DNA from: an uncultured Bacteroidales bacterium
GTDB taxonomy: Bacteria; Bacteroidota; Bacteroidia; Bacteroidales; Paludibacteraceae
Direction of reading: 5' to 3'
NCBI GenBank assembly: GCA_902799185.1
Contig: CADBZO010000021.1
Coordinates: forward strand, 1 to 35,028
DNA length: 35,028 bases
This document shows positions 7,890 to 32,517 of the stretch, piece after piece; position 1 is the first letter of the stretch; each line of letters starts with the position of its first letter. Below the pieces are notes generated by a model. That model ran no database searches and was not told where the DNA came from. It worked only from the letters and a program-made list of their open reading frames with translations. A program made the translations under genes and the position numbers.

Positions 7890-9392
7890 TTATTTCAGTT
7901 TCAGTGTTTTGAGAATAATCGGTTCCATGATGTCATATCCGGCATCGTTCGGATGCACTTCATCGCCGCTCAGTCCGGACCGTAGTCCTCCGTCAAAATC
8001 AACCATGGCTGAGTAGTAGTCCACATAAGGGATATGATACGTATGTGCGTAGTTTCGGATAAGCGTATTAAGTTCGCGTATCTGTTCGGGGGCATCGGAA
8101 ACGTAGGGGTTCCATCGGAAAGACCTCGCAGGAAGGACGGAACAGAGGACGGGTCGGATATGATGTTTTTTTGCCAGCTCGCACATCGAGATGATATTAC
8201 CCATGATATGTTCAATAGAAATCGTTCCGTTGTTCTGGGCAATGTCGTTGATGCCGCAGAGAATGACGACCGTCTTCGGACGGAGGTCGATGACATCCTG
8301 CCGGAATCGGACGAGCATTTCAGCAGAGGTCTGCCCGCTTATACCGCGTCCGATGAAACCGTGTGCCAGGAAGAAGCCTGGTCGCATCTTATACCAGTTT
8401 TGGGTGATGCTATTGCCATAGAAAATAACAGACACTTTTGATTTCCGAGCCTTCAATTCGTCATTAGCCTGGGCATACCTATTGAATTTTGCCCAGTCAC
8501 GTTGTCTTTTCTGTTGAGAAGCAAGCGTCTCAGAAGGTCTTCCTGTGACAAAGGCAGTAATCGCTTCATCAATGCGGTCGCGGTCGGGGAATTGGCGGGA
8601 GAAGCCCCAACCATGCTTGCCATACGGTACGATGAGCAGGGACGAGGGTACGTTATGGGCGGTGAGGGCTTCGTAGAAGCGGATGGAGTTGGTTATGGGA
8701 ACGGTAGGATCATCCTGACATCCAACGATAAGACAGGGAGGCGTAGCAGATGTGACATGCTTGTCGCACGACCAGTAGATGCGCTGTTCATCGGTCGGGT
8801 TGTCACCGAGGAGTTGGCGGCATGAACCGCGATGGGTGAGCGTGGAGTCCATGGAGATGACGGGATAGACGAGGACACCGTAGTCGGGTCGTGTGATTGA
8901 GTCGGTATAATGCGTCAACAGGGATGCAGCGAGGTGTCCGCCTGCGGAGAAGCCCATAACACCGACAGTCACATCGGGCGTATGCCAGACGGAGGCACTA
9001 TCACGCAGGATACGCATAGCTTGCAATGCATCGTGAAGGGGGATGTTCTCGTGCCCATTGGGAAGGCGGTATTTGAGAACTGCCACGATATAACCGCGCG
9101 GGACAAAGAAATCCGCTACTTTGATGCCTTCATTGCCCGATGAAACGAAAGAATATCCACCTCCCGGAATGGAGAGGATGATGCCTTTGGGGGCAGTGTC
9201 GGGGTGGTATATATCCAAGCGCGGTTCGGCTATTTGATATATCTTTGTTTCGCTTTTGACATATTCATCGGAAGCGGTATAGCCATTGGAATCGGGAGCG
9301 CCGTCGGGATAGAGTACAACGGTTTGCGCCGGGGGCAATGCGTACATGCCCAGCGAGAGCAACACAAAAACAAAGCAGATAAAAGACCTCAT
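7890..9392 (-). CDS. Secreted two-domain esterase: alpha/beta hydrolase + SGNH hydrolase
   Basis: This 500-aa protein has a signal peptide (MRSFICFVFVLLSLGMYA). Domain 1, about residues 25-285, is an alpha/beta hydrolase of the BD-FAE/acetylxylan-esterase type, with an oxyanion loop IPGGGY (75-80), nucleophile GFSAGG (Ser149), Asp227 or 228, and His260. Domain 2, about 318-500, is an SGNH/GDSL hydrolase with GNSIT (Ser328), an RGISGQ block, GIND (Asn382) and DEVH (Asp477, His480). Both catalytic sets look complete, so the protein probably removes two kinds of ester group from one substrate in the periplasm or outside the cell. It is the last gene of the locus, 6 bp after the transporter gene. 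Acetyl or aminoacyl ester substrates are both possible; the sequence does not decide. Confidence 0.9.
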   Translation of the reverse strand: MRSFICFVFVLLSLGMYALPPAQTVVLYPDGAPDSNGYTASDEYVKSETKIYQIAEPRLDIYHPDTAPKGIILSIPGGGYSFVSSGNEGIKVADFFVPRGYIVAVLKYRLPNGHENIPLHDALQAMRILRDSASVWHTPDVTVGVMGFSAGGHLAASLLTHYTDSITRPDYGVLVYPVISMDSTLTHRGSCRQLLGDNPTDEQRIYWSCDKHVTSATPPCLIVGCQDDPTVPITNSIRFYEALTAHNVPSSLLIVPYGKHGWGFSRQFPDRDRIDEAITAFVTGRPSETLASQQKRQRDWAKFNRYAQANDELKARKSKVSVIFYGNSITQNWYKMRPGFFLAHGFIGRGISGQTSAEMLVRFRQDVIDLRPKTVVILCGINDIAQNNGTISIEHIMGNIISMCELAKKHHIRPVLCSVLPARSFRWNPYVSDAPEQIRELNTLIRNYAHTYHIPYVDYYSAMVDFDGGLRSGLSGDEVHPNDAGYDIMEPIILKTLKLK

Positions 9393-9398
9393 AATGAT

Positions 9399-10784
9399 TT
9401 ATTTTTTGCTACGTGCTTTATGCCACACGACACATACGAGGAGTACGGAGAGGGTGGCAGCGGTTATCCAGAAGATAAGGGCGGGAGTGAAGTCATAGGT
9501 ATATTGCTCCACTCCATCGATGGTGGCGGTGACTGTTTTGTGGGTATCGATGAGCAGACCGGAGGCGATGTCTTGGAGTCCGGCAGCTGCATAGGATGCG
9601 ATGCCGACGACACCGAGGGCTGCACCTGCCGCTTCTCGCGGGACGATGTCCACCGCCATGAGTCCGCCGAGGAAACAGATGAGCACACCGATGGCGATAC
9701 CGAAGAGTACCATGGCAAGTATGTTCACCCATCCGGCATCACCGCCAAAGGCAAAGAGGAGGAGCGCAAGCACTTCGAGGATACCGGCTGCGACGGCAGG
9801 GATGTAACGATTGCCCTTGAAGGCGACATCCGAGAGCCATCCGGAGAAGACCGTACCGATGATACCGAGCAGGGCGTTGATGGAGATTATCTGCGTAGCA
9901 TTGGCGAGGGTGAAGCCTTTGGTCTCTTGCAGGAAGAGGACTCCCCATCCGTTGACGGCATACCGGGACACATACATGAAGGCGGACGCGAAAGCGAGTA
10001 CCCAGACATAGGGGTTACGGAGGACGGCTTTCTGCGAGAAGCCGATGGAATGGTCTTTCTTCTGCTCGGTTTGTTCCTCGCCAGCCATAACGACAACGGA
10101 GGGCATTCCTTCCGCTTCGGGTGAGTCATGGAGGAGGAAGACGATGAGCAGGAAGCCGATGACACCAGCGATGGCTGCACCGATGAAACCGAACTGCCAG
10201 CCGAGGACGGAGACGAGTCCGCCGACGAGGAGGAAAGAGAAGAACTCCCCGAGGTTATGGGAGAGCGACCAGAACCCATAGAAGGTGCCGCGACGGGAGA
10301 GCGGATACCAGCGCGAGAGTGCTACGACGCATGGAGGCGCACCCATGGACTGAGTCCAACCGTTGATTCCCCAGAGGATGGCGAAGACGGTGTATAACGC
10401 ACCTTGGGATATTGCCATTTGGGAGGCGGTGATGATACCGAGCAGTCCGACGACGATGTTCGCGACGGTGGAGATGAGCAGACCGGTAGCCATGAAGCGG
10501 CGTATGTTCGAATGGTCGGCAAGGAAGCCGTTGACGAACTTACCGATAGCATAGGTAAAGAGGAGCGCGGAGGAGATGACACCGAGTTGTTTGGCATCAA
10601 GTACTCCAGCATCCATGATGGGTTTCTTGACTACGTTGAGGGATGTCCGGCATACATAGTACATGCTGTAACCGAGCGTGACGGCAAAGAAGGAAGCCCA
10701 TTGCATTCGTTTGAAACGGGCGTTGCGTTGCTGTTCCGATTCGTTACGTAACGGAGCAGCAGGTGATTTGGAGAAGAAACTCAT
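9399..10784 (-). CDS. Organophosphate:phosphate antiporter (GlpT/UhpT-like, MFS)
   Basis: This 461-aa inner-membrane protein has twelve predicted hydrophobic segments and a central charged loop near residues 220-250. It matches the OPA branch of the major facilitator superfamily. Arg46 (MYYVCRTSLN) and Arg274 (MYVSRYAVNGW) fall where GlpT has its phosphate-binding Arg45 and Arg269. OPA carriers exchange glycerol-3-phosphate or hexose-phosphate for inorganic phosphate. The start codon overlaps the stop of the glycerophosphodiesterase gene by 4 bp (ATGA), indicating translational coupling, so glycerol-3-phosphate released by that enzyme is the likeliest cargo. UhpC-like sensing or hexose-phosphate uptake cannot be excluded. 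Confidence 0.88.
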   Translation of the reverse strand: MSFFSKSPAAPLRNESEQQRNARFKRMQWASFFAVTLGYSMYYVCRTSLNVVKKPIMDAGVLDAKQLGVISSALLFTYAIGKFVNGFLADHSNIRRFMATGLLISTVANIVVGLLGIITASQMAISQGALYTVFAILWGINGWTQSMGAPPCVVALSRWYPLSRRGTFYGFWSLSHNLGEFFSFLLVGGLVSVLGWQFGFIGAAIAGVIGFLLIVFLLHDSPEAEGMPSVVVMAGEEQTEQKKDHSIGFSQKAVLRNPYVWVLAFASAFMYVSRYAVNGWGVLFLQETKGFTLANATQIISINALLGIIGTVFSGWLSDVAFKGNRYIPAVAAGILEVLALLLFAFGGDAGWVNILAMVLFGIAIGVLICFLGGLMAVDIVPREAAGAALGVVGIASYAAAGLQDIASGLLIDTHKTVTATIDGVEQYTYDFTPALIFWITAATLSVLLVCVVWHKARSKK

Positions 10785-11695
10785 CGCAGGTGTTTCGATT
10801 GGAGGTAATTAATCAGATATTGAGGCCGGTCGGTCTGGATGATACGAAAACCGAGCGAGTCGATGAGATAGCCGTAATGGGCATCGGGATCGTTGTAGGC
10901 TTCGTCATCTTCATGTCCGCCGCAGAGAGTGTCCCAGAGACAGTTAACCCAGAGGAGAGACTTGCCTTGTGCGAGCGCAGATGCCTGCTTGACATAGGTA
11001 TCATCGTCACGCCAGCACAGTTCAAAAGCGCATGGGTTGCTTGCGAGGTGGGCAGTGAAGGTCTCCACGGAAGCGGAATCGTTCATGTCCACAATGGGCA
11101 TATAAATGACCTCATCGAGGTATTGGCCATAGAGAGCCCGCACTTCGTCTGCCGGTTTGCGTCCTTTCATGATGATCTGGCGGGTCGTACCGGTCTCTTG
11201 AAGGATAGGCACAACGAGGTCGAAGTAGCGATCGGCTTTATCGAGATTGATGAGCACGCGGTCTTTACAGAGGAGCAGCACTTCGCGGAGGGTCGGTATC
11301 TCATGGCGGGTCTTGATGGAAACGCCGTTCTTGAGCCGGAAAGTGCGGATGGAGTCGAGTGTCATTTCGGCGATGACTCCTTTGCCGGTAGTGGTGCGGT
11401 TCAGTTTGGAATCATGCATGATGATGAGTTGGCTGTCCGCAGTACATTGCAGATCGAGTTCAACGATATCTACGCCCATCGCGATAGCGGACTCAATGGC
11501 AGGGATGGAATTCTCGGGCCATCCTCGCCAATCGGCACGGTGGGAAGCCACGAGCACACGTGGACAGTCGGGGTTAAGCAGGTCGGCACGGATCTGTTCG
11601 GAACGGGATAACTGCTCTTTCGGAGCGGAACAAGCCGTCAGAAAGGACAAAGTGACGATGTACAAAGTACAAAGGATAAAACTATATCTTCTCAT
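10781..11695 (-). CDS. Glycerophosphodiester phosphodiesterase lipoprotein
   Basis: This 304-aa protein has a lipoprotein signal (lipobox LTAC, Cys22). The GDPD TIM-barrel starts near residue 46, with family motifs ASHRADWRGWPENS (His52, Arg53, Glu61), VELDLQ (Glu79, Asp81) and MHD (His94). These are the metal and acid-base residues that hydrolyse glycerophosphodiesters to glycerol-3-phosphate and an alcohol. Membrane anchoring puts the activity in the periplasm or at the surface. It is coupled by overlap to the OPA transporter gene and follows the GH65 gene by 4 bp. The hydrophobic core of the signal (FILCTLYIVTLSFL) is encoded by a 30-bp dispersed repeat. Confidence 0.92.
   Translation of the reverse strand: MRRYSFILCTLYIVTLSFLTACSAPKEQLSRSEQIRADLLNPDCPRVLVASHRADWRGWPENSIPAIESAIAMGVDIVELDLQCTADSQLIIMHDSKLNRTTTGKGVIAEMTLDSIRTFRLKNGVSIKTRHEIPTLREVLLLCKDRVLINLDKADRYFDLVVPILQETGTTRQIIMKGRKPADEVRALYGQYLDEVIYMPIVDMNDSASVETFTAHLASNPCAFELCWRDDDTYVKQASALAQGKSLLWVNCLWDTLCGGHEDDEAYNDPDAHYGYLIDSLGFRIIQTDRPQYLINYLQSKHLR
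11643..11680 (-). repeat. 30-bp dispersed repeat inside the GDPD signal peptide
   Basis: The minus strand reads CCTTTGTACTTTGTACATCG then TCACTTTG. Nearly the same word occurs at 13844-13873 on the opposite strand and, more diverged, at 13714-13750 on the minus strand. Confidence 0.7.
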
Positions 11696-11699
11696 TGTA

Positions 11700-13769
11700 T
11701 CATGGTTTGATTACCATATCGGGGTGTCCTTTGCGGCGGATGGTGAGCGAACGCCATTCGGCAGGAAGGACGGGTTTATATGCTTGTTTGAGCCCTTTGC
11801 CGGTTATGTCAAGTCCGGCAAAGCCGAAGAGAAGCGTCTGGAGCGTTCCTCCTGCGCCGGTGATGAAATAGGGGTTGGTGCCGCCGTTAAACTCCGCTAC
11901 TACGCGGAAAGGCGGGTTGAGGTTGGGCAGGTAGGAGTCACGCCACCAGAAGAGTGCTTTTTCGGCATCGCCGAGCCGCGCATAGAGGGTGGCATAGATG
12001 GATTTGGTCATCGCAGGTGTCTTTTTCTCAGGCACAGTAGCGATGTAATATTCGAGATTACGGAGGATTTCCTGTTTGTCGGTGAGGACATGCAGAGGGA
12101 ATGCGAGTAATGCTACATCGGCTTGCTTGACAGGTTCGCCGTTGTAGGTGGAATGCTCGGCGATGATGCCGGAAGGCAGGTAAGACAGATGCAGTTTGGA
12201 GGCGGTCTGCTGCCAAGCGGGATCAGGTTTGATACGCAGTACTTTGGCGGCAGCCGCTGCGGCACGGAGGGTTGTTTGTGCCGCCCCGATGGTATAGGCG
12301 TTGTTGTTCACCTGTTTACCACCGTAGATGTTTTGGTTCCATTCATCGGCACCGATGATGTTAATGATGTCGCCATTGGGTTCGATACGGCTTACCCAGA
12401 AATCCGCCGCTTCGCGGATGAGGGGATAACCGACAGAGGCGAGCCATTGTTTGTCACGGGTGACGCAGAAGTATTGCCAGCAAGCATTGGCTATGTCGGC
12501 AGTGATATGGTTCTCGGCTTCTGAATAAAGATTCGGGAGAGGAGTCTCTTCATGTCCGGAAGCAGCACTCTCCCAAGGGAACATGATACCTTTGTACCCG
12601 TGCATATAAGCGTTTTGCCGTGCGGCAGGCAAGCGGTCGAAGCGGTATTGGAGCATCTGCCGAGCCATGTCGGGTTGCATGAGCAGAAGTACGGGGTACA
12701 TCCATGTCTCGGAGTCCCAGAAGACATGTCCGTTATAACCCAGTCCGGAGAGTCCCATGGGTGAACAGGACGAGGGCGCATCGGTCCGATAGAAGGCATA
12801 ATGGTGATAGAGCATGGAGCGGATGTCCTGCTGTGCTTGCGGATCCCCTTCTATGATGATGTCGGATTGCCAAAGGTCCGCCCATGCCTCGTTATGCCGT
12901 TGCCAGAGCCGGTCGTAGCCTTCGAGCAGTTGGAAGAGGGTGAGCCGTTCGGTCTCGTTGCGTGTATCGGGTATGACGTTGGAGGCAAGGATGTTTCCCA
13001 CGAGACACACATGGAGAGTATCGCCTTGGGCAAGATGACAGGTGAATGCCATTCCGTTGGCACGGGAGGTGGAGTCTTCGATGAGCACTGGTTTATAGGG
13101 AGTACCTTGTGCCGGTGCATCAGGAAAGAGGAAAGCTGTGGTCGCAGCAAGGGTGTGTCTGCCAGAGGGCGACTGCGCGGTCGTGGAAAGCAGATAGTGC
13201 ACGGGGTATTTCTTGACAAACGGACTACCGTTGTTCTTGACACGCGAGAAAAAGGAATGCGGTTCGGGTAGGTTGTCGGGCACGCGATGACGGTTGGTAA
13301 CTGTGATGTCTATGTTCGCGAGAGCAACGAGACGCATGTCAGTAAGGAAGCCATAGGGCATATGTCGCAGGGCAACGGTGGTGTACTGCACTTGTAGTTG
13401 GTCCGGACAGGTAAAGGTGCCGGTGAAAGCAGCGTTATGGAAGTCGAGTTGCTGGGAGTAGTCTGCGACGGATTCGGGTTGTATTTGTGTACCGTTGACT
13501 TGGATGAGTATGTCAAGCGGGTTGATGTTCGGGAAGAAGTTGTTGACTCTGCCCGAACCGTATATGTCATACAGTCCTCCGACGACTACTTTGTCCACTT
13601 GGAGGGGATGGCGACTGCTGACAAGTCCTATCTGTCCATTGGCAGAGGTGATACCGTAGTAATCCCCTTGCAGGGGTTGGTCTGTACGGATAGTCCAAGG
13701 GTCTTGCGACCATAGAGACAAAGGAACCAAGTACCATGTACAAAGGACTAAGAATAACGCTTTTCTCAT
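11700..13769 (-). CDS. Secreted GH65-family alpha-glucosidase
   Basis: This 689-aa protein has a signal peptide (to about Ser21-Gln22), an N-terminal beta-sandwich (to about 270) and an (alpha/alpha)6 barrel typical of GH65. Diagnostic blocks are NGHVFWDSETWMYP (346-359), MFPWES (396-401), GADEWNQ (Glu476, expected general acid) and VAEFNGGTNPYFITGAGG (Glu626). From memory, GH65 hydrolases such as human PGGHG and the Flavobacterium johnsoniae kojibiose hydrolase have a general-base Glu in that last region, which GH65 phosphorylases lack. This and the export signal favour hydrolysis of an alpha-glucoside over phosphorolysis. alpha-1,2 (kojibiose-type) specificity is the best guess, not proven. 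It lies 2 bp after the EEP fusion gene and 4 bp before the GDPD gene. Confidence 0.88.
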   Translation of the reverse strand: MRKALFLVLCTWYLVPLSLWSQDPWTIRTDQPLQGDYYGITSANGQIGLVSSRHPLQVDKVVVGGLYDIYGSGRVNNFFPNINPLDILIQVNGTQIQPESVADYSQQLDFHNAAFTGTFTCPDQLQVQYTTVALRHMPYGFLTDMRLVALANIDITVTNRHRVPDNLPEPHSFFSRVKNNGSPFVKKYPVHYLLSTTAQSPSGRHTLAATTAFLFPDAPAQGTPYKPVLIEDSTSRANGMAFTCHLAQGDTLHVCLVGNILASNVIPDTRNETERLTLFQLLEGYDRLWQRHNEAWADLWQSDIIIEGDPQAQQDIRSMLYHHYAFYRTDAPSSCSPMGLSGLGYNGHVFWDSETWMYPVLLLMQPDMARQMLQYRFDRLPAARQNAYMHGYKGIMFPWESAASGHEETPLPNLYSEAENHITADIANACWQYFCVTRDKQWLASVGYPLIREAADFWVSRIEPNGDIINIIGADEWNQNIYGGKQVNNNAYTIGAAQTTLRAAAAAAKVLRIKPDPAWQQTASKLHLSYLPSGIIAEHSTYNGEPVKQADVALLAFPLHVLTDKQEILRNLEYYIATVPEKKTPAMTKSIYATLYARLGDAEKALFWWRDSYLPNLNPPFRVVAEFNGGTNPYFITGAGGTLQTLLFGFAGLDITGKGLKQAYKPVLPAEWRSLTIRRKGHPDMVIKP
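13714..13750 (-). repeat. Diverged copy of the 30-bp word in the GH65 signal peptide
   Basis: The minus strand reads CCTTTGTACATGGTACTTGG then TTCCTTTGTC and encodes LVLCTWYLVPLSL of the signal peptide. It shares CCTTTGTAC.T.GTAC with the other two copies. Confidence 0.6.
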
Positions 13770-13771
13770 GA

Positions 13772-16108: not shown

Positions 16109-16112
16109 TCTA

Positions 16113-17765
16113 TTATTTTATGATTTTCTGACCATTGACTACATATACACCGGCAGGAAGGGCATTGATGTCTTCGCCGAGGTAATGACCGAGCAGCGAA
16201 TATACGCCGGTACGTGCAGCGGTAGCAGAGACATTATCAATCGCTTCATGCGGATCATCGTCATCATCTTCCGGTGCTACGCCGTTGGGGTCATAGGAAC
16301 CCGATACGGTATTGGAAGCACGTGTGTAACGACGTTGGTCTTTGGTCAGATCCATCACTTTGGCGATGTTGTCCACCGGCCACGTGTTCACAACAGCTTG
16401 CACCGCATTCACGTCCATAGCCACATTGGCGATCGGCGCTACGACATCGCTTACGCCGCCTTGGTTGGCGATTTGATTGCTGCCGAAGATGCTCTCGATG
16501 GTGTTAACAGTAGCCAAAGATGTCGGGATATTATCGGAAGAGATAAAGCCACCGGCTTGTGTACTATTGTTGGTAACGGTACCCATAACGTTGTATCCTG
16601 CAGAAGCGACAGTAGCCGCAGCATTCTGGATATAAACGACAGGATCGGTAGCAGTATAATCATCGTTTTTCTCATACTCCACCATGATGTTTCCGGCATA
16701 GTAAGTATTGGAGTTATTGCCGGCAGAAATAGCCGAACCATTGTTCGAACCACGGCTGCTACGTTGGCGACAGGGGTTGTTATAGAAAGTATTGCAGATG
16801 AAGTATGCTTTGGTATTCGTACCCAATCGAAGGCCCACACCGCGGTACCAGCATTTACTATCTGCCAAAAGGCAGTTGACCATATAGAGGGTACCACCGT
16901 TATCGGATACAGAAGCAGCACCTCCGTAGGTACCCCAAACCTGCTTTTCGGGTGTACTGGTAACGGTATTATAGGTAATGTTGTTACGGAACTCGCAACG
17001 CTCGAAATAAGCAATGGAGTAATCGGCAGGATCTGTAGTGGAAGAGTTGGACTTACGCGCACGAACTTGGAACGCAGAGCCCGAACCTTTGGCTGTGATA
17101 TTATCACGGAAGATACAATCGAAGCAACGCACGGCACTACCCCATATCTCTATGGCACCATTAGAACCATCGCTATCCGGATCGCCTTGCGAGTCATTAT
17201 TAAGGAAACGGCAGAAATGGAAATCCACTTGTGCTGCTTGTACGAACACCATGTTTCCCCAATACTTACTATTCATGTAACGGCCGTCACGGAAGGTAAT
17301 GCCCCATATTTCCGTTTTCTGCCAAGTAGAATAGTATGCCTCACTCTTCTCATCCGGCGTGCCATCGCCGATATAAACGAAGGCATAGTCGGTATTGTCA
17401 CCTACGCCATCACCGTCAAGGTCAGCAGAGAAAACAGATTGGCCACCTTTGGAGAAGGCATACTTAGTGTTGGTACCGGTCATGGTTGCAGGATAACCAC
17501 CTTTGAGGATGACACCTTGCGGAATGATCCAGCGGTTGGTGTTGACATCGGGTGCATAGGCACCTTCCATCAGATAGAACTCCATTCCCGGTTCAGCGGA
17601 TGCGAGCGTAGCACCGAGCATGTCAGCCGGAGCTGCATTTTCCCATGACGTACCGTCGTTATCGCCGCTACCGGCGGGGGAGAAGAAATAACGAATTGTC
17701 TCATCTTGAGCATTGAGACTCAGTGTGAGTGCTGCAAGCAGCATCGAAAAGAAAATCTTTCTCAT
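16113..17765 (-). CDS. Secreted parallel beta-helix protein with type IX sorting tail
   Basis: This 550-aa protein has a signal peptide (MRKIFFSMLLAALTLSLNAQ) and a right-handed beta-helix of the pectate-lyase-like kind, rich in N/G turns and short strands (for example CRFLNNDSQG, CEFRNNITYN, CNTFYNNPC). An acidic linker (EDDDDDP) precedes a C-terminal domain ending LPAGVYVVNGQKIIK, the classic form of a type A T9SS sorting signal. No catalytic motif of a known lyase family is recognised. It may bind or cleave the polymer handled by the locus. It lies 31 bp after susD and 4 bp before the EEP gene. Confidence 0.8.
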   Translation of the reverse strand: MRKIFFSMLLAALTLSLNAQDETIRYFFSPAGSGDNDGTSWENAAPADMLGATLASAEPGMEFYLMEGAYAPDVNTNRWIIPQGVILKGGYPATMTGTNTKYAFSKGGQSVFSADLDGDGVGDNTDYAFVYIGDGTPDEKSEAYYSTWQKTEIWGITFRDGRYMNSKYWGNMVFVQAAQVDFHFCRFLNNDSQGDPDSDGSNGAIEIWGSAVRCFDCIFRDNITAKGSGSAFQVRARKSNSSTTDPADYSIAYFERCEFRNNITYNTVTSTPEKQVWGTYGGAASVSDNGGTLYMVNCLLADSKCWYRGVGLRLGTNTKAYFICNTFYNNPCRQRSSRGSNNGSAISAGNNSNTYYAGNIMVEYEKNDDYTATDPVVYIQNAAATVASAGYNVMGTVTNNSTQAGGFISSDNIPTSLATVNTIESIFGSNQIANQGGVSDVVAPIANVAMDVNAVQAVVNTWPVDNIAKVMDLTKDQRRYTRASNTVSGSYDPNGVAPEDDDDDPHEAIDNVSATAARTGVYSLLGHYLGEDINALPAGVYVVNGQKIIK

Positions 17766-17796
17766 GATTTAATCATTTAAGCGTTATACATGTTAA

Positions 17797-19623: not shown

Positions 19624-19626
19624 ACA

Positions 19627-22600
19627 TTAGAAGGTTGCGGTTATACCGAAAGTGAATGATTTAGAAAAGCCATATGTGATGGCTTGCGAGGAAGAGACTG
19701 CGGATTCAGGGTCGATGCTCTTGCAGTAACGCAGCAACGGGCTCCAGTACCACAGGTTTTCTCCCGAGAAATAGATACGGAATTCGGAGAACACTTTCTT
19801 CCAGCACGGGAGAGTATAACCAACGGTAAGGTTTTTAAGCCGGATGTATCCGATGTTCTGGATGTAACGGCTGTTGGCGGGACCAAGGCTGTTGGCAGCC
19901 CCAAGTGCTTCATAGGCACGATAGCGCGGGAAGTAACCGTCGGGGTTATCTTCGCTCCACACATGAGACATGAAGTCTTTCTCCATAAATCCCTGATAGG
20001 GACGCGAATAAGGTCCCCAGAAGGTGGTTGCTTCATTGTTCGGATACCAGTCGCATTTTCCTACGCCTTGGAAATAGATACCGAGGTCCACGCCGTACCA
20101 GTCGGCAGAGACATGGAAGTTATAGTTATATCTGGGCAGTCTGTTTCCGATCACTTTCCTGTCACCCGGGTTGTCCACGGTGTTGTTTCCGGAAGTGATG
20201 ACACCGTCGCCGTTGAGGTCCACATAGCGTACATCGCCCGGATGGAGTCCCGGCGCGGCGGAGTTGACTTCTTTGATGATGTCGGTATATACTTCGGAAG
20301 AAACGGCATCAATTTGTGCGAGGTAGTCATCCACTTCCTGTTGGGAAGCAAAGAGTCCGTCTATCTCGTAGCCCCATATCTCGCCGAGGACTTGCCCTTC
20401 GTAATAGGTAGATAACAGCTTCTCGGGGTTGTTATATTTGGTGATGACGGTCTTGTAGTTACCGACACCGCCGCATATCTCATAGCTGAACGGTTTGCCG
20501 CACACGTTGTGTTTATCCCGCCAAGCGAGAGACACTTCCCATCCTTTGGTGGACATGTTAGCAGAGTTCTGCTTGGGGTCGGTTGCTCCATAGACAGAAG
20601 GCAGTGCCGATCCGGTATTGAGCATTCCTTCGGTATTACGCATATAAATGTCCCCGGTAATAGAGAGGCGGTTATTGAAAAAGCCGAGGTCCAAACCGAG
20701 GTCGTAGGTAGTCATTTTCTCCCATGTGAGTGTACCGGCATTTGGGTCCGCTTCGGTAGCATAGGAGAGGACAGATGTGCCATCCAACGTGATGTCCTGC
20801 GTGAACATACCGTCGGCATTGACAGACTGGATGTAGTCGTAGTAGCCGGTCATCTGGTTTGCGAGTTGTCCGGCGGAGAAACGTATCTTGGCATTGGACC
20901 ACCAGTCTTGTATGGGTTCCCAGAAGGGCTCTTCGGACATACGCCATCCGAGGCTACCGCCCGGAGTAACTGCCCAACGATAGCCGGGTGCAAAGCGGGA
21001 CGATGCATCGGCACGCACGCTGACCTCGAAGAGGTAACGTCCGTTCCAGTCATAGTTCACACGTCCAAAGAAGCCGTTGGTAGCAACAGTCTTGATAGAT
21101 TCGCTGAGGTCGGTTACTTCGCCTTTAGCAAAATTGAAGGACGACAGTTCTTCGCTCATCAGATCCATGCGTTCCGCCACAGTGGAATGATAGCGGAACA
21201 TCTCCCCGTTATAACCGGCGGTGATGTTCAGGTTGTGTTTGCCCCATGTCGGTGCCCAGCGGACGTAGACGTTGTAGTTATGGGTCTGATAGCGCGCGAG
21301 TTGCTGGCGGTAGGAATCGACGGACCGGAAGTCCTCAATGAGGTCGGTTGTTCCCTCCTTGCAGGAGTACGGCACTTTGACGGAGCGGTTGCAGATCTCC
21401 TTCATACGCCATGTGAACGAGTAGTCCGCATTGAGTGTCAGATCTTTGTAGAGGTCAAAAGTGAGACTGTTCTTGATAATCATCTCGCGGTTGCGGTTGA
21501 CATTCTTATGCTTGCCGTTGAGCAGTATGGCGCTCATGCCGTTACCGACCGTTCCGTTACCCGAGTATATCCACGGGTTGAGATAGACGAAAGAGCCGTC
21601 GGGGTTGGTGGCGGGTATGTATGCCATAGCATGAAGTGAGCCGACACGGAAGACCTCGCGCGAAGACTCCGTACCCGGGTAAGTATATTTGGAGGAGAAG
21701 AACGAGAAATTGACGCCGTAATGAAGCCAAGGCTTGATGTTGATGTTCACCTTGGCACGCGTAGAGAACTGATGCCAACGGTCGGTATTCTGTCGGAACA
21801 TACCATCCTCCATGAAATAGCGACCGGATACATAGTAGTTGATACGGTCGTTACCGCCCTTGAGGGATATGTTATAGTCCTGCATCGGGCGTGTGGACTT
21901 GAAGTAATGTTTGTACCAATCGAAGTTCGCGTAATACTTGTAGGAACCGTCAGATTGGGTTACCACCCACGGACGTTCGGAGTCTTCTGTATCGTCATTG
22001 ATACGCATCCACAGTTCGGCATAGTCGGCATCGGTATAGGTTGTCATGGCATAGTTGGTATGCTGACGGAGGAAGATGTCGCTGATGTATGCCGACCAGA
22101 AACCGGAGGTGATGAAGTCATGAGAGGTGGTCTCTGTCTTGAAACCAGCTTTGGCATCGATGGTTACCTGCGGTGCGAGTCCTTCTTTACCGGACTTGGT
22201 GGTGACGAGGATGACACCGGCGGCTGCTTTGGAACCATAGATGGCAGAAGCGGATGCATCTTTGAGGATGGAGACAGACTCTATATCGTTTGAGTTGACA
22301 CGTGCCAGATCCATCTCGACACCGTCCACAAGGACGAGGGGCTTGGTGATAGAGGCGTTGTTGATAGACGCCGCACCACGGATGTTAAAGTTATATCCGG
22401 CCCCCGGTCCTCCGGCAGAGGGTGTGATATTAAGGGCAGGGTCGGCACCTTGCAGGGCAGTAGCCATGTTCGGCGTCGGACGTCCGACGATGTCTTTCTG
22501 ATCCACTACGCTGACGGCACCGGTGAGGTTCACTTTCTTCTGTGCACCATAGCCGACGACAACCACTTCTTCAAGTTGTGCGGTTGATTCCGCCAATGCG

Positions 22601-23124
22601 ACCCGATAGGAATCGGAGTTAGCGCTGACGCGCTGCTCATAGGTCTCATACCCGAGGTAGGAGATCTGGAGATATTGTCCCGTGGCCGCATCGAGTGAAA
22701 AATTTCCGTCGAAGTCGGTGACAGTACCTTGGGTGGTACCTTTGATGACGACCGAGGCGCCTATGACGGGTTCGTTGGTAACTTTATCGACCACTATACC
22801 GCTGACGGTCCGTGCGGCGGTCTTCTTCTCTTCGGGGGAAAGGACGATGACTTTGTTCTCCGCCATTTTGTAGGCGATGCCTGTACCGGAGAACAGTTTA
22901 GACAGCACTTTGTCGAGCGGTGAGTCGGTCACGTTGAGCGTGACGGGGGTGTCCAGTCCTTGGAGAGAGCTGTTGTAAAAGAAATGGTAATCGCATTGCT
23001 GTTCCACCATCGGAAGCACATCCTTCAAGGGTTTGTTGCTTACGTTGAGAGTGAGCGTCTGCGCCTGAAGTGTCAACAACGAAAGCAGCATCGTAAACAA
23101 TGCAATGGTAAAAAGGCGTTTCAT
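19627..23124 (-). CDS. SusC/RagA-family TonB-dependent transporter with STN domain
   Basis: This 1,165-aa outer-membrane protein has a signal peptide (to about 21), then a secretin/TonB N-terminal signalling (STN) domain (about 22-98, LTLNVSNKPLKDVLPMVEQQ), a carboxypeptidase-regulatory-like beta domain (about 106-190, VSGIVVDKVTNEPVIGASVV), the SusC segment EEVVVVGYGAQKK, a plug (PLVLVDGVEM, KDASASAIYG) and the 22-strand barrel. It imports the substrate bound by SusD using TonB energy. The STN domain is the usual partner of a FecR anti-sigma factor, which matches the ECF/FecR pair upstream and suggests substrate-triggered induction of the locus. Confidence 0.96.
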   Translation of the reverse strand: MKRLFTIALFTMLLSLLTLQAQTLTLNVSNKPLKDVLPMVEQQCDYHFFYNSSLQGLDTPVTLNVTDSPLDKVLSKLFSGTGIAYKMAENKVIVLSPEEKKTAARTVSGIVVDKVTNEPVIGASVVIKGTTQGTVTDFDGNFSLDAATGQYLQISYLGYETYEQRVSANSDSYRVALAESTAQLEEVVVVGYGAQKKVNLTGAVSVVDQKDIVGRPTPNMATALQGADPALNITPSAGGPGAGYNFNIRGAASINNASITKPLVLVDGVEMDLARVNSNDIESVSILKDASASAIYGSKAAAGVILVTTKSGKEGLAPQVTIDAKAGFKTETTSHDFITSGFWSAYISDIFLRQHTNYAMTTYTDADYAELWMRINDDTEDSERPWVVTQSDGSYKYYANFDWYKHYFKSTRPMQDYNISLKGGNDRINYYVSGRYFMEDGMFRQNTDRWHQFSTRAKVNINIKPWLHYGVNFSFFSSKYTYPGTESSREVFRVGSLHAMAYIPATNPDGSFVYLNPWIYSGNGTVGNGMSAILLNGKHKNVNRNREMIIKNSLTFDLYKDLTLNADYSFTWRMKEICNRSVKVPYSCKEGTTDLIEDFRSVDSYRQQLARYQTHNYNVYVRWAPTWGKHNLNITAGYNGEMFRYHSTVAERMDLMSEELSSFNFAKGEVTDLSESIKTVATNGFFGRVNYDWNGRYLFEVSVRADASSRFAPGYRWAVTPGGSLGWRMSEEPFWEPIQDWWSNAKIRFSAGQLANQMTGYYDYIQSVNADGMFTQDITLDGTSVLSYATEADPNAGTLTWEKMTTYDLGLDLGFFNNRLSITGDIYMRNTEGMLNTGSALPSVYGATDPKQNSANMSTKGWEVSLAWRDKHNVCGKPFSYEICGGVGNYKTVITKYNNPEKLLSTYYEGQVLGEIWGYEIDGLFASQQEVDDYLAQIDAVSSEVYTDIIKEVNSAAPGLHPGDVRYVDLNGDGVITSGNNTVDNPGDRKVIGNRLPRYNYNFHVSADWYGVDLGIYFQGVGKCDWYPNNEATTFWGPYSRPYQGFMEKDFMSHVWSEDNPDGYFPRYRAYEALGAANSLGPANSRYIQNIGYIRLKNLTVGYTLPCWKKVFSEFRIYFSGENLWYWSPLLRYCKSIDPESAVSSSQAITYGFSKSFTFGITATF

Positions 23125-23137
23125 GGGCGGTATGTTT

Positions 23138-23548
23138 TTATTCTACATTCAGTGTAACGGGTATCTGTATGGGTTGGAAATCCCAATTAGGATACTCCAG
23201 CCTGCCCCAGAAATAGATACGCACTTCGCCTGCTTGGGTGAGGGCTATCTTGCCGGAGGTGAAACAGATGGTGCCTGCGATCGTATCGGGTGTACAGAAG
23301 TCCGCTGTCTTTTCCGGATCTGATCCCCACCAAGAGGTATAGAACCAGTAGGTGGCTTTCTTGAGCGAAGGGTCTCCCGGGCTCAACATGGTGATGGACG
23401 CCTGTACGGTGTCACCAAGGGCATAGACCGCTTTGGAGGGACTCAGCGTAATCTCGCTGAACTTCGGCAACTCCCTCTGCTGCTCCTTCTTGCAGGCAAC
23501 GAACGCCGGCAAAAGGAGCATAAGGAAGATATATAAACGGAGTTTCAT
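23138..23548 (-). CDS. Small surface lipoprotein, Ig-like
   Basis: This 136-aa protein has a lipoprotein signal (LLLPAFVAC) and one predicted beta-sandwich (SPSKAVYALGDTVQASITML, then TLNVE at the end), like PKD or SusE-type N-terminal modules but without the carbohydrate-binding domains of SusE/F. It lies 13 bp before susC. It is probably an outer-membrane accessory lipoprotein of the SusCD complex; this is by position and no family is named. Confidence 0.75.
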   Translation of the reverse strand: MKLRLYIFLMLLLPAFVACKKEQQRELPKFSEITLSPSKAVYALGDTVQASITMLSPGDPSLKKATYWFYTSWWGSDPEKTADFCTPDTIAGTICFTSGKIALTQAGEVRIYFWGRLEYPNWDFQPIQIPVTLNVE

Positions 23549-23583
23549 ATAATCAGGATTTAAGATATGTACACGATAGCGTA

Positions 23584-23733: not shown

Positions 23734-23735
23734 GG

Positions 23736-26579
23736 TTATAGTTGTTGTCCTAAAGCGTTATACATTTTTCCGTCGCGGAGGATGAAGAGTTGTCCATCAA
23801 TAATCAATTTACGATTAGACGATTTACCATTTACTATTTGATCCATGTCCGTAGTGGTGTTCGGAGCCTGGTGGATGCCGAGTACTATGCGGCGCGGAGA
23901 CGGAGCGTAACCGCCGCCCGGTGCATCCGGCACTTCCGAGAAGACGAGGTAGGCTCTGTTAGCAGCCAAAGTTATTTCCACGTCGGAGGAAGTGGCTTCG
24001 TTGTAGGTCTGTCGGAGTTCGTTGTCTTGCAGCACATACTTGCCCGCGCCGCTGACGGTGGTGCCGGAGATAGTACCATACAAACCATTCTCATGATCAT
24101 CAGCAGCGGCGTCACCTTGTTCCGTATATGCGAAAGATACCGTGTCGCTTTCAGCGAGGAAGAAATACGGTTTGCCTGCTACGAGAGCATCCACCTCTTC
24201 CAATAACAATCCGTTTTTCTCATTGGTTGCGAAAGAGAGCACTTTATACACTTTGGCATTTTCAAATTCCGCTACCGCATACGGGAGGCAGATAGTACCA
24301 AACTTGCCTTCCTCAACCCTACGACCATTTACGCGCTGCTCGTAGCAACCACGGTCCATTGTTCCTTGTTTACGTTTGTTGCCTGCCAAGTCAGTAGTAC
24401 CATGGAAATAGCCGCCATGACCTGTATCGATCAGACCGGATGCGAGCGTCGGTGTGAAATCTCCATTAGCTGCATCCTTGAAAGGATCTGCCGTTAAGAA
24501 AATCGTACTGGGCACATTGAAATCAGCGCCATCAGCCAGTTTGCCATTCCATACAAGCGCATTGTTTACAAAGTTATTGGCCTGCGCAGCATACGATGCA
24601 GAAACCAGAATCTGGCTTGCTTGTACTTCATTATTGGCTTTGTTGCCCCATACAATATTATTGCAGAACTGCAACGGACCACCTACATTCAAACGCACGC
24701 CGCACCAGTCGGGATTGGTAGAAGATGCCTGCGAGTTATTCACAATCGTGTTACCAAACACGGTATGCGTCTTACTCTCTAATGACAAACCACCTATACG
24801 GTTTGTTGCATGATTGCCAACTATCAGACAGTTAGCAAGCGTACCGCTAGTACCGCTAGAACTTCCGCTCATACGAACGCCGCCCATATCAGCATTGGAT
24901 ACTGTTCCTGCTATATTGTTGCGAATAATACAATTATACATACAACCACCGTTGAACAAGTGAACACCGCCACCGGCGTTATTCGTAGTGGAGTTCTCTT
25001 CAATGATCGAGTTTTGGATAGTACCTACAATACGGACACCACCACCGTGCGTACCTTGGTTGCGACGAATAATACAATCATCGACTAATACATCCGAATG
25101 TTCATTCACTTCGTTATTCGCGACACCGCCACCTTGGCAGTTGGCACCTGTATAGGTAAATGTATTATCCTGAATAATACAATGCTTTACCTGTCCGTTT
25201 TTGCGGAGGAACACACCCGAGCCGTATGTATCCACATTGGCGTTCAAATTACCATGTTGGATAGTGAGGTTACTCCAAACGGTAAGGTTCGCGAAGTTGG
25301 CAGTCTGGTTAACGACACGACCACTATTTTGGGCATCCAGAATAGTGGCATAATCGGTTTGGTTCTCAAAAGTAGCATCCCAACCGCCGCTGACGTTCAC
25401 ACCGTCTTTCATGGTGAAGTTGCCATAATAGGTACCTGCCTCTACATAAACGGTCTCACCTACCGGAGTAGCATCAATTGCCTCTTGCAAATCCTCGTCC
25501 GGATGTACATAATTGTCCGCCAATACCGGATATTGGTATTCATAGCAACCGATATCCACCGTTGTGCCGGAGATACGTGCATTGCCTGCTACATCATATT
25601 CTACCGTTGATCTCTCATTGCTTCCTTTATCTACCAATATAGAGGTGGATACGAGCGAGAAGTCTCCATTGGCAGCATCCGTAAAGCCCGGGTCATCAGC
25701 AGACAGATTGATGCTTCCCGTACCGGTTGGCTGGTTGTAAACGGCATTGTTAATTATTTGGTCCGCAGGATAGCGCGATATATAAAAGATCTGCGCGCTG
25801 TTGACAACACCTTTGTGCTTATTACCCCAGATGATATTGTTTGCCAGATAATGGCCTGCAGAGATACTGCTACTTTTCGCACAGGTCAGACCACAACGGC
25901 TCTTATCGCCATCTGTGTCGCTACTCGTATTCTGGTCATTTCCGACAATCGTATTACCGATAATGTCGGCATCCGTCTCTGATTGGATACCACCGCATCT
26001 TTTGGTTGCGATATTATTGACAATTAGGCAATTGATCACTTTTCCTGCAGAACCGTTTATACGCACACCTCCAGCATCGCCGGTAGCGGTATTATTGCGG
26101 ATGATACAGTTATACAACTGACCACCGTTATAGAGCTGTGCGCCACCTCCTGCTTTGCCGGAACCACCGGTGGTGTTACCTTCGATCAGACAGTGATCCA
26201 AGCGGGCATTGGCACGCAGGTGTGCACCACCTCCGCCATCAGCCGGATTACCGTTGGTAAGTTTGAGATTACTCCATACGGTGAGCGCCGTCAGATTCGT
26301 AGTGGACGATACCGGACGACCGCTGTTGTTGGCATCGAGGACGGTTGCGTAGTCGGTTTGGGATGTGAAGTCTTCATTCCAACCTCCGCTAACGTTCACT
26401 CCGTCTTTAAAAGAGAAGTTACCGGTGAATGTTCCGGCATGAACGCGAACCTCATCTCCTGAAGTTGCAGAATTGATTTTTGCTTGCAAATCGTCTCCTA
26501 CCGAGACTTGAATAATTGCTGCTTGGGCACCTGTCCAACAGAGCAACCCAACGAACAAAGGAATAAATGTTTTTTTCAT
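23736..26579 (-). CDS. Large secreted protein with two beta-helix domains
   Basis: This 947-aa protein uses the ATG at 26579, which starts a clean signal peptide (MKKTFIPLFVGLLCWTGAQA); an in-frame codon eight residues upstream is less likely. Two homologous right-handed beta-helix domains follow, about 22-355 and 365-760, each opening with the same elements (DLQAKINSATSGDEV or DLQEAIDATPVGETV; KDGVNVSGGW; QTDYAT.LDA.NSGR). A smaller beta-rich module and a tail (KLIIDGQLFILRDGKMYNAL, then GQQL) resembling the EEP fusion protein tail end the chain. It is the first structural gene after fecR (42 bp gap). A role in binding or cutting an extracellular polymer is inferred. Confidence 0.82.
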   Translation of the reverse strand: MKKTFIPLFVGLLCWTGAQAAIIQVSVGDDLQAKINSATSGDEVRVHAGTFTGNFSFKDGVNVSGGWNEDFTSQTDYATVLDANNSGRPVSSTTNLTALTVWSNLKLTNGNPADGGGGAHLRANARLDHCLIEGNTTGGSGKAGGGAQLYNGGQLYNCIIRNNTATGDAGGVRINGSAGKVINCLIVNNIATKRCGGIQSETDADIIGNTIVGNDQNTSSDTDGDKSRCGLTCAKSSSISAGHYLANNIIWGNKHKGVVNSAQIFYISRYPADQIINNAVYNQPTGTGSINLSADDPGFTDAANGDFSLVSTSILVDKGSNERSTVEYDVAGNARISGTTVDIGCYEYQYPVLADNYVHPDEDLQEAIDATPVGETVYVEAGTYYGNFTMKDGVNVSGGWDATFENQTDYATILDAQNSGRVVNQTANFANLTVWSNLTIQHGNLNANVDTYGSGVFLRKNGQVKHCIIQDNTFTYTGANCQGGGVANNEVNEHSDVLVDDCIIRRNQGTHGGGVRIVGTIQNSIIEENSTTNNAGGGVHLFNGGCMYNCIIRNNIAGTVSNADMGGVRMSGSSSGTSGTLANCLIVGNHATNRIGGLSLESKTHTVFGNTIVNNSQASSTNPDWCGVRLNVGGPLQFCNNIVWGNKANNEVQASQILVSASYAAQANNFVNNALVWNGKLADGADFNVPSTIFLTADPFKDAANGDFTPTLASGLIDTGHGGYFHGTTDLAGNKRKQGTMDRGCYEQRVNGRRVEEGKFGTICLPYAVAEFENAKVYKVLSFATNEKNGLLLEEVDALVAGKPYFFLAESDTVSFAYTEQGDAAADDHENGLYGTISGTTVSGAGKYVLQDNELRQTYNEATSSDVEITLAANRAYLVFSEVPDAPGGGYAPSPRRIVLGIHQAPNTTTDMDQIVNGKSSNRKLIIDGQLFILRDGKMYNALGQQL

Positions 26580-26621
26580 GATAATAAAGGTTTTTAATTG
26601 CAATTAAACATATATATGTTG

Positions 26622-27590
26622 TTATCTTTTTTTGCGCGGGTATATATACACCATCGTGTCATTGTCCACATGATAACTCATATCCGACGCGAGACAGAGC
26701 ACATCAAGGATGTTACGCAGGGACGAGCGTCCGAGGTAGCCGTTGAACCGCTCCTGCTTGAGTTCGTTAGAGGTGATAACGAGGTCGATATTATAGTTTC
26801 GTGACAGCTCGGCAGCTATCTCTTCAAGGGTCTGGTTGTTGAACTTGATCTCACCGTTGAGCCACGCGGTATAGTCGGAAGGCGTAACGGTATGCTTGGA
26901 GAGGGCGAGGGTCTGCCGATCCATGAGCACACGGCTGCCGGGTTCCATCGTGAGGTCGGCATCACGGGCGTTGACCCGCACCTTGCCGTCACGGAGGACA
27001 ACGGAGGCATTGGACTCGTCGCTGTAGTTACGCACATCGAAGGACGTACCAAGACAGGTGACGGTCATGCCGTTGGCGTTGACCACGAACGGATGCTCGG
27101 GATCACGTGCCACTTCAAAGAAGGCTTCGCCGTCGATGGAGACCTGACGTTTGCCGTCAGCGAGGTTATAGCGCACAGTGGTCTGGGCATTGAGGGTGAG
27201 GGCTGTGCCGTCAGGAAGGGAGACACGGCTGTGCTCGCCCATACCCGTCGTGACAATGATGTCACGAATTGGATTATTTGAGATTTGAGATTTGAGATTT
27301 TGATTTTGGATGCCAAAGAGGGTCCAGCCGAGGGCACCGGAGATGATGAGGATGAGCATGACAGCAGCTATCGACCAGCAACGACGGCTGATTAGAGGAC
27401 GCTGTGTACGCGCGTAAACATTATTTAGAATACGCTCGCGTATGGGTTCGGGCATGCCGCCCTCGGCAAACTCGATGTCCGCCCGAAGCCAGCCACCGAG
27501 CTGTTCGTCCGCATGGAGCTGACGCAGCAAGGTCTCCCGCTCCTCAGCGGTAGCATTACCTGCCAGATATTTCTCGAATAATTGTTTCAT
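26622..27590 (-). CDS. FecR-family anti-sigma factor
   Basis: This 322-aa inner-membrane protein has a cytoplasmic sigma-binding N-terminus (MKQLFEKYLAGNATAEERET), one transmembrane segment (about 72-94, IAAVMLILIISGALGWTLFG), the periplasmic FecR domain (VSLPDGTALTLNAQTTVRYN, GEAFFEVARDPEHPFVV) and a C-terminal DUF4974/STN-like domain (FNNQTLEEIAAELSRNYNID). It would hold the ECF sigma factor until the STN domain of SusC signals ligand. The stretch LKSQISNNP just after the membrane segment is encoded by a simple repeat (TTTGAGA units, 27275-27305). Confidence 0.94.
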   Translation of the reverse strand: MKQLFEKYLAGNATAEERETLLRQLHADEQLGGWLRADIEFAEGGMPEPIRERILNNVYARTQRPLISRRCWSIAAVMLILIISGALGWTLFGIQNQNLKSQISNNPIRDIIVTTGMGEHSRVSLPDGTALTLNAQTTVRYNLADGKRQVSIDGEAFFEVARDPEHPFVVNANGMTVTCLGTSFDVRNYSDESNASVVLRDGKVRVNARDADLTMEPGSRVLMDRQTLALSKHTVTPSDYTAWLNGEIKFNNQTLEEIAAELSRNYNIDLVITSNELKQERFNGYLGRSSLRNILDVLCLASDMSYHVDNDTMVYIYPRKKR

Positions 27591-27610
27591 TGAATTTTGC
27601 CTTTCTACCT

Positions 27611-27638
27611 ATAAGACAGCCGAACTTGGCACATCCCC
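27611..27638 (-). promoter_or_regulatory. Duplicated leader motif upstream of fecR
   Basis: On the minus strand GGGGATGTGCC (27638-27628), 8 nt, CTGTCTTAT (27619-27611), preceded by a CCCTA/TAGGG palindrome, starts just after the sigma gene stop. The identical arrangement, with the same 8-nt spacing, precedes the sigma gene. It is either an ECF-sigma-dependent promoter or a shared RNA element. Confidence 0.6.
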
Positions 27639-27656
27639 TAATAGGGAGGAGGATTT

Positions 27657-28184
27657 TTAATCATTTAGATGGTTTTTCAATTCGCGGATGGCGAGGGTGA
27701 TGTGGACCTCGACCGTTTTCTCGCTGATATGGAGGGCGGCTGCAATCTCTTTGTTGGTCTTATGCTCAAAGCGACTCATGGTGAAGACACGTTGCCGCAT
27801 AGGAGGCATATTCGAGACGACTTGCTTGAGGTAGTCTTCGAGGGAACGGGCTTCCTGTCGGTTTTCGGGTTCGTTCGTTGTCTCCGAGCCATGCTGCATG
27901 ACGTACTCCTCATAGACATACCGAACCATATCGTGCTCGCAGTAGTTGAGGAAGATATGCTTGGCAGTAGAGAAAAGGTAGCCAAGTGCCGCCTGCTGAT
28001 CACGGAGACTATCCCAGTGCTCCCACAGGCGTACAAAGGTCTCCTGCACAATCTCCTCGGCGAGGTACGAATCCCCGCCGGTCAAGCGCAAGGCAAAGCC
28101 ATAGATATGGCGGCTATACGCGTCGTATAGTTGCTCAAACTCGCGTTTTCGAGCGGCTACCATATGATTGCCGAATATGCTCAT
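27657..28184 (-). CDS. ECF-type sigma-70 factor
   Basis: This 175-aa protein has region 2 (FEQLYDAYSRHIYGFALRLT, EEIVQETFVRLWEHW) and region 4 with a good HTH (PPMRQRVFTMSRFEHKTNKE, IAAALHISEKTVEVHI). It belongs to the FecI-like Bacteroidetes type that pairs with the adjacent FecR. It should direct transcription of the downstream susCD locus and possibly itself. ATG at 28184 is used; Met8 (28163) is possible because the motif upstream lies only 7 nt before the first ATG. Confidence 0.95.
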   Translation of the reverse strand: MSIFGNHMVAARKREFEQLYDAYSRHIYGFALRLTGGDSYLAEEIVQETFVRLWEHWDSLRDQQAALGYLFSTAKHIFLNYCEHDMVRYVYEEYVMQHGSETTNEPENRQEARSLEDYLKQVVSNMPPMRQRVFTMSRFEHKTNKEIAAALHISEKTVEVHITLAIRELKNHLND

Positions 28185-29993: not shown

Positions 29994-30045
29994 ACTACCG
30001 AATTTTCTCTGCCACAAGGGCGCGATTATTTTTCAAATTCTGGTG

Positions 30046-31976: not shown

Positions 31977-31979
31977 GAT

Positions 31980-32492: not shown

Positions 32493-32517
32493 AATTTTTA
32501 ATGCTATTAAAAATGTT

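Follow-up and report, generated by a model that had tools for sequence, protein, structure and literature searches.

A probable Sus-like locus for a phosphate-linked polymer bearing alpha-glucose in an uncultured Paludibacteraceae bacterium

Overview of the locus

The window, by which is meant the whole 35,028-nucleotide stretch analysed here (contig CADBZO010000021.1 of assembly GCA_902799185.1, from an uncultured Bacteroidales bacterium of the Paludibacteraceae), carries a run of 12 co-oriented genes on its minus strand, from position 28184 to 7890. The run probably constitutes a Sus-like locus, induced by its substrate, whose target is a phosphate-linked glycan or polyol polymer bearing alpha-glucose. 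Under an extracytoplasmic function (ECF) sigma factor and a FecR-type anti-sigma factor, it holds a SusC-SusD pair (SusCD), a phosphoesterase of the endonuclease/exonuclease/phosphatase (EEP) family, an alpha-glucosidase of glycoside hydrolase family 65 (GH65), a glycerophosphodiester phosphodiesterase (GDPD), an organophosphate transporter of the OPA family and a double esterase. The single most likely substrate is an alpha-glucosylated poly(glycerol phosphate) of the wall teichoic acid type, an assignment that we put forward tentatively.

A preliminary description of this DNA had placed these genes in one co-oriented run under the ECF sigma/FecR pair and had read them as a utilization locus for a teichoic-acid-like polymer. 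Assignment of the proteins to families with Pfam and NCBIfam found every gene that it named where it had placed it. The single run and its regulators are borne out, the SusCD pair is confirmed by SusD_RagB and TIGR04056, and three further members are added, namely proteins of 955, 550 and 136 aa. With adjacent SusC and SusD genes, a glycan-active enzyme and a regulator, the run has the make-up of a Sus-like polysaccharide utilization locus (PUL).

Association of the SusD group with phosphoesterases

The SusD of the run belongs to a group whose gene neighbours are often phosphoesterases. A GTDB scan with a SusD alignment detected at least 520 related loci, of which the best 80 were retained. 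Three of these, L098-L100, match same-genus loci described below; 78 of the 80 have a SusD open reading frame and 67 have a co-oriented gene after it. A phosphoesterase lies within the four co-oriented downstream genes at 38 of these 67 loci. Among the controls, which are loci of other SusDs, 1 of 14 has one (Fisher one-sided p=0.0006); this p-value serves as a guide, since the controls were few and chosen by hand and the loci are related by descent. Labels in the count of 38 are backed by Pfam or by homology from outside the set; when labels include examples from the set itself, the count becomes 50 of 67. The families found beside the SusD relatives include EEP (24 of the 38 loci), GDPD, NAGPA, PHP, histidine phosphatases, type I phosphodiesterases and calcineurin-like proteins. 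Given this difference between the SusD relatives and the controls, a phosphorylated substrate is likely for the locus.

Two loci of the same SusD group, from Hoylesella timonensis (L129) and H. enoeca (L177), have the arrangement SusCD-EEP-GH89-GH3. The EEP and GH89 of L129 are assigned by Pfam, while in L177 the GH89 and GH3 labels fall in one 1562-aa frame and the SusC and SusD frames are in pieces. In the SusCD locus L104, a histidine phosphatase is fused to a NAGPA phosphodiester glycosidase (14788-16881), and a Pfam check of the 578-aa protein of this locus gave no EEP domain.

Conservation of the gene order

When 358 genomes of the family were searched with SusD, 34 of them, counting that of the window, matched at E 1e-60 or better, and 36 stretches were fetched around the other matches, some same-genus ones ending early at contig ends. 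The order SusC-SusD-550 aa-EEP-GH65-Gfo/Idh-GDPD-OPA is kept in 14 stretches from 14 same-genus genomes (L061, L062, L063, L065, L066, L068, L069, L071, L074, L078, L079, L080, L081, and L082), with extra genes interspersed in some of them (a HAD gene, a second EEP gene, NagB, and small genes). In this set, L081 has an incomplete SusC and L082 a short one; the OPA gene is cut at the stretch end in L065 and L066; the frame called for Gfo/Idh has just 374 aa in L062, L069, and L074; and the GH65s of L081 and L082 are identical. The preliminary description staked its reading on homologous loci keeping their phosphodiesterase and transporter genes, and EEP, GDPD and OPA genes are present in all 14 of these complete same-genus loci. 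The esterase gene comes next in 8 of the 12 loci whose stretch reaches past OPA, with both esterase domains in two of them. The relatives' Gfo/Idh gene was considered as a GH109 alpha-GalNAcase and this identity was rejected, as the 60 PDB matches listed, of 76 in all, and the nine NCBIfam models listed for each of two members are all named dehydrogenase or oxidoreductase or left unspecified; the gene is left as an oxidoreductase.

Six more distant loci (L050, L085, L087, L088, L089, and L090) retain a labelled EEP in five cases (not L090) and OPA in five cases (not L050), and their glycosidases change. L087 features an EEP-GH3 fusion, GH89, a histidine phosphatase and GH97; L085 combines two EEP genes with Gfo/Idh and GH20; and L050 has a NAGPA phosphodiester glycosidase with EEP. 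Since EEP and OPA mostly stay while the glycosidases are swapped, the pattern fits phosphate polymers of varying sugar decoration, for which a phosphate core with changing sugar enzymes would be expected.

Separately, L065, L066, and L069 carry two short genes (129-137 and 123 aa) between EEP and GH65, and the ends that were read of the L065 and L069 copies match.

GH65 and its acceptor site

The GH65 enzyme scores 831 bits against the NCBIfam kojibiose hydrolase model (NF053734; cut-off 800 bits), and its best match among solved structures is FjGH65A of Flavobacterium johnsoniae (PDB 7fe3). By positions mapped by hand from the alignment to FjGH65A, it keeps the catalytic acid E476, the base E626 and the subsite -1 residues and has no phosphate-binding serines, the further residues read at these sites being W351, D352, K548, Q549, P585, and A586. 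The hydrolase-type residues of the preliminary description are thus present. Subsite +1 of FjGH65A is described as lined by W391, E392, and T407 (PMC8626586), and its Arg74 as blocking O6 of the +1 glucose (PMC10316084). The window enzyme keeps W391 and E392, but T407 is changed to Tyr and the O6 guard R74 to Ser.

These changes were compared between 17 rows (14 distinct sequences) from phospho-loci and 12 other GH65 rows. The 17 rows form one clade with full support in the GH65 tree, and all of them have Tyr in place of Thr407, where the 12 others have Thr or Ser. Arg74 is replaced by Ser, Pro or Thr throughout the 17, and among the 12 it is kept in five, replaced in six and lost to a gap in one. 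Its loss alone is unspecific, for the seven GH65s outside the clade that lack it all keep T407. A Gly-Gly-Lys insertion after the catalytic acid and a gained K60 are each found in 17/17 phospho-locus rows and 0/12 others. The gain of basic residues is only partly specific to the clade: R53 is present in all 17 rows with Lys at this position in two of the 12 others, K589 occurs in all 17 and in one of the 12, and K485, like K60, is seen in none of the 12. L106 breaks the rule that links enzyme and context: R74 is retained in its GH65 and position 407 is Ser, although an EEP gene adjoins SusD in this locus.

Together, the clade-wide changes at T407 and R74, the Gly-Gly-Lys insertion and the basic residues indicate that the GH65 acceptor is likely charged or differently shaped. 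The enzyme shares its NCBIfam family with the F. johnsoniae kojibiose hydrolase, beside which the preliminary description wished to see it placed in a tree, and is probably an alpha-1,2-type glucosidase, but its acceptor site is different, and kojibiose itself may not be a substrate. GH65 also takes in a 2-O-glucosylglycerol phosphorylase (PMC8626586). A collagen-type Glc-alpha-1,2-Gal substrate was also considered, as PGGHG is likewise a GH65 enzyme, and is disfavoured by the phosphoesterases in the run.

Phosphoesterases, transporter and esterase

The preliminary description spoke of an EEP phosphodiesterase fusion. Pfam confirms the fusion of an EEP domain to a beta-helix, whereas phosphodiesterase activity is a conjecture. 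The nearest structures were sought with a predicted model and Foldseek beside a PDB sequence search, and the closest are two titled merely as family members, followed by the mannosyl-6-phosphatase BT3783 of Bacteroides (PDB 4c1r), which is about 24% identical. BT3783 was solved as an EEP domain alone, unlike the enzyme here with its beta-helix and its tail resembling those of the type IX secretion system (T9SS).

The GDPD lipoprotein is as previously described, with the Pfam GDPD domain and the lipobox LTAC, and keeps the catalytic motif H52-R53, E79, D81, and H94. It has the fold of the Bacillus subtilis teichoicase GlpQ, reported to be active on poly(glycerol phosphate) (PMC7086022). According to the same source, GlpQ cleaves the wall teichoic acid of its own kind, whereas the GDPD here belongs to a Bacteroidota uptake locus, carries DUF4996 and has a predicted activity.

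Both arginines that the preliminary description assigned to phosphate binding in the OPA transporter, R46 and R274, are kept; we take them to be the phosphate-site residues. Among PDB structures, the transporter ranks GlpT (150 bits) above the glucose-6-phosphate exchangers (104 bits). The double esterase was also correctly recognized, with BD-FAE and GDSL domains by Pfam and their Ser motifs.

Proposed pathway and substrate

From gene content, conservation, active-site residues and neighbour association, we infer the locations of the proteins, the order of the steps and the substrate as follows. The ECF sigma/FecR pair and the STN domain of SusC would sense the substrate. At the cell surface, the EEP/beta-helix protein and the other secreted proteins would bind and clip the polymer, and SusCD would import the fragments. 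In the periplasm, the esterase may take off acyl groups, GH65 would remove alpha-glucose from an altered, perhaps charged, acceptor, and GDPD would cleave glycerophosphodiester bonds. The OPA carrier would then move the released phosphate ester into the cytoplasm.

GlpQ is reported to halt at glycosylated or alanylated glycerol phosphate (PMC7086022), which would explain why a GDPD is paired with an alpha-glucosidase and an esterase. GlpQ-like enzymes are described there as specific for sn-glycerol-3-phosphate, the unit of wall teichoic acid, while lipoteichoic acid (LTA) consists of sn-glycerol-1-phosphate. If the GDPD shares this stereospecificity, intact LTA, which the preliminary description had entertained, is disfavoured and wall teichoic acid is better suited. 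The teichoic-acid reading of that description stands in part: a phosphate-ester substrate and an alpha-1,2-type glucosidase are supported, and the identity of the polymer as teichoic acid is not established. The same applies to its proposal that glycerol-3-phosphate is the imported unit. GlpD (PF16901) and GlpA (TIGR03377) were found in none of the 15 locus genomes, seven of which have a completeness of 90% or more and a contamination of no more than 5%, and a NagB/PIG-L gene lies within two of the 14 conserved operons. Since a control genome, that of Bacteroides ihuae, is likewise without GlpD and GlpA, their absence may be general in the phylum. Glycerol-3-phosphate would then need to go into phospholipid synthesis or back through GpsA, which 14 of the 15 genomes have.

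Possibly, then, this is the first locus of the Bacteroidota that is devoted to the uptake of glycosylated wall teichoic acid. Its GH65 would represent a clade with a new specificity, taking alpha-glucose off a glycerol phosphate (or sugar phosphate) acceptor, and in the sister loci other glycosidases would have been exchanged in to suit other teichoic acid decorations; we hold this with less than even confidence. No published Bacteroidota teichoic acid locus was evident from the titles listed in searches of the open-access PMC literature. If the proposal is true, Bacteroidota of the gut and rumen live in part off the phosphate-rich walls of their Gram-positive neighbours, which would be a nutrient link between the two main phyla of the gut. 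The analysis also singles out a broad set of SusD relatives that are likely specific for phosphate esters, and offers a testable GH65 clade with a specificity yet to be assigned.

Alternative substrates

Several observations weigh against the main reading, in addition to the missing GlpD and GlpA and the small SusD control set. The third acidic residue of the GDPD motif, compared by eye, is Asp152 where GlpQ has Glu152. The OPA transporter reaches no NCBIfam cut-off, scoring 201 bits against the GlpT equivalog where 632.55 are needed. The Gfo/Idh gene is absent from the window though it is constant in the 14 same-genus loci, and no copy was found at E 1e-20 in the window's genome, which is 86.7% complete. 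Of the six diverged loci, only L088 has a labelled GDPD, as a fusion with the esterase, which weakens the glycerol part of the teichoic acid idea for these loci. Furthermore, among EEP structures with a named function the nearest is a sugar phosphatase, and the NagB/PIG-L gene within the operons of L065 (Pfam-backed) and L066 (100% identical over the labelled parts) suggests hexosamine-6-phosphate.

The last two points, along with the lack of GlpD and GlpA and the five diverged loci without GDPD, favour the main rival, a capsule or wall polymer of sugar phosphate with 6-linked phosphate, whose transported unit would be hexose- or hexosamine-6-phosphate instead of glycerol-3-phosphate. Here EEP and/or GDPD would expose a 6-phosphate, GH65 would remove alpha-1,2 glucose from the 6-phosphorylated sugar, and OPA would act like UhpT. 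The loss of Arg74, described as blocking O6 in FjGH65A (PMC10316084), and the basic residues gained by GH65 are in keeping with this, as are the PIG-L proteins that lie near OPA in L089 and L090 and whose N-terminus is weakly NagB-like (Pfam gives only PIG-L in L089). However, all 14 same-genus loci have GDPD, L088 has it as a fusion with the esterase, NagB is unlabelled in 12 of the 14 same-genus stretches and in the window, and the best PDB match of OPA is GlpT by the margin given above. We regard this substrate as possible but rather doubtful.

Phosphorus scavenging of the PusCD kind, drawing on a mixture of organic phosphodiesters (lipid headgroups, for example) and leaving GH65 as a side activity, is unlikely. 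The PusCD systems PUSI and PUSII of F. johnsoniae likewise set SusCD beside phosphodiesterases or phosphatases, and other PUS clusters of the same report have pectate-lyase-like exoproteins (PMC8115612). The variety of phosphoesterase types linked to the SusD relatives agrees with such scavenging. The likeness is one of gene content. PUSI and PUSII are described as induced by phosphate starvation and as being without carbohydrate-active enzymes (PMC8115612), unlike the locus here with its ECF/FecR pair, GH65, OPA and esterase. The ECF/FecR pair and the STN-bearing SusC would predict induction by substrate and not by phosphate, GH65, OPA and Gfo/Idh are constant in 14/14 relatives, and the change in the GH65 acceptor site is conserved.

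Headgroups of glycerophospho-glycolipids, such as kojibiosyl lipids or the archaeal phosphoglycolipids of the rumen, would offer GDPD, the esterase and the alpha-1,2-glucosidase each a bond to cut, and many of the related contigs come from ruminant or gut samples, according to their titles. This substrate is quite improbable, as the SusCD pair and the secreted EEP/beta-helix proteins suggest a polymer, and Pfam and NCBIfam identify no lipase family in the run besides the esterases.

A branched dextran locus in which the phosphoesterases are incidental is highly improbable despite the kinship of the GH65 to FjGH65A and the next-closest GH65s that neighbour GH13 (L039) or GH31 and GH97 (L040): Pfam finds no GH66, GH31, GH97 or GH13 in the window run, the GH65 acceptor site differs and SusD falls in the phosphoesterase-linked group, so that a plain alpha-glucan locus was rejected from gene content and acceptor site.

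The locus with its phosphate-linked polymer as probable substrate looks like a cross between a PUL and a PusCD system. The nearest described systems are the PusCD clusters and the branched dextran locus FjDexUL; it has traits in common with each and fits neither definition fully. With FjDexUL it shares a SusCD PUL and a GH65 hydrolase of the same NCBIfam family; FjDexUL is described with SusR, GH66, GH31, and GH97 and without phosphoesterases (PMC10316084, PMC8626586), whereas R74 and T407 are replaced here and the Gly-Gly-Lys loop is added.

Secreted and surface proteins

The C-terminal tail of the EEP protein recurs at 20 other sites of the genome, and by eye a similar tail closes the 955-aa protein. 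No curated tail model in Pfam or NCBIfam matches these tails, and SprA of the T9SS is encoded in the genome, as an SprA_N match. The shared tail and the genomic SprA make export of the EEP and 955-aa proteins to the surface through the T9SS likely. For the 955-aa protein, NosD and Pfam DUF5123 matches stay below the cut-off, and the start is more likely the ATG at position 26579, eight codons past the TTG. The 136-aa lipoprotein is kept immediately before SusC in the relatives. Counterparts of the 550-aa protein share 50-73% identity with it in the same-genus loci and 23-27% in the diverged ones; a beta-helix fold is our guess for it, and its structure prediction (mean pLDDT 34) is unusable for the fold.

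Layout and surroundings of the gene run

The eight intergenic gaps among the last nine genes of the run measure -4 to 31 bp (Table 1). The pattern scan that gave the terminator-like stem-loop past the last gene saw six such stems in the region, where 2.3 were expected.

Table 1. Genes of the run and the stem-loop that follows it, in window positions (MFS, major facilitator superfamily).
Feature	Position	Strand	Basis
ECF sigma factor	27657..28184	-	Pfam Sigma70_r2 and r4_2
FecR-type anti-sigma factor	26622..27590	-	Pfam FecR, FecR_C
Secreted beta-helix-like 955-aa protein with T9SS-like C-terminal tail	23736..26603	-	NCBIfam choice-of-anchor Q above cut-off; tail by eye
136-aa lipoprotein	23138..23548	-	Lipobox FVAC; labelled in relatives
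SusC-type TonB-dependent transporter with N-terminal STN domain	19627..23124	-	TIGR04056, 828 bits
SusD-type lipoprotein of the phosphoesterase-linked group	17797..19623	-	Pfam SusD_RagB; gene-neighbour association
550-aa secreted protein	16113..17765	-	No Pfam or NCBIfam match; conserved beside SusD
EEP phosphoesterase domain (about 1-300) with beta-helix and T9SS-like tail	13772..16108	-	Pfam Exo_endo_phos and Beta_helix; invariant EEP residues; model and Foldseek
GH65 alpha-glucosidase, hydrolase type, with changed acceptor site	11700..13769	-	Pfam Glyco_hydro_65m; NCBIfam KJHdlse; PDB 7fe3; active-site table; tree
GDPD and DUF4996 lipoprotein	10781..11695	-	Pfam; PDB 3i10; catalytic motif and lipobox LTAC
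OPA-family organophosphate transporter (MFS)	9399..10784	-	GlpT 1pw4 best PDB match; R46, K82, H176, R274
Double esterase: BD-FAE alpha/beta hydrolase and GDSL hydrolase	7890..9392	-	Pfam; Ser motifs
Terminator-like stem-loop past last gene	7829..7852	-	Pattern scan alone

On its upstream side, the run is flanked by an aspartate/asparagine-tRNA ligase gene and ribosomal genes. These genes, for the ligase, L17, RpoA, S4, and S11 (30600-34705, minus strand), show that the locus adjoins the end of a ribosomal operon. At the other end of the window, a 1826-aa open frame (3-5480, minus strand) without a Pfam or NCBIfam match runs off the contig start and contains repeats, presumably of the InlB type. 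A 349-aa frame (28968-30017, minus strand), also without a Pfam or NCBIfam match, carries an MPNHLH motif, which we take to resemble that of Y1/REP-associated transposases.

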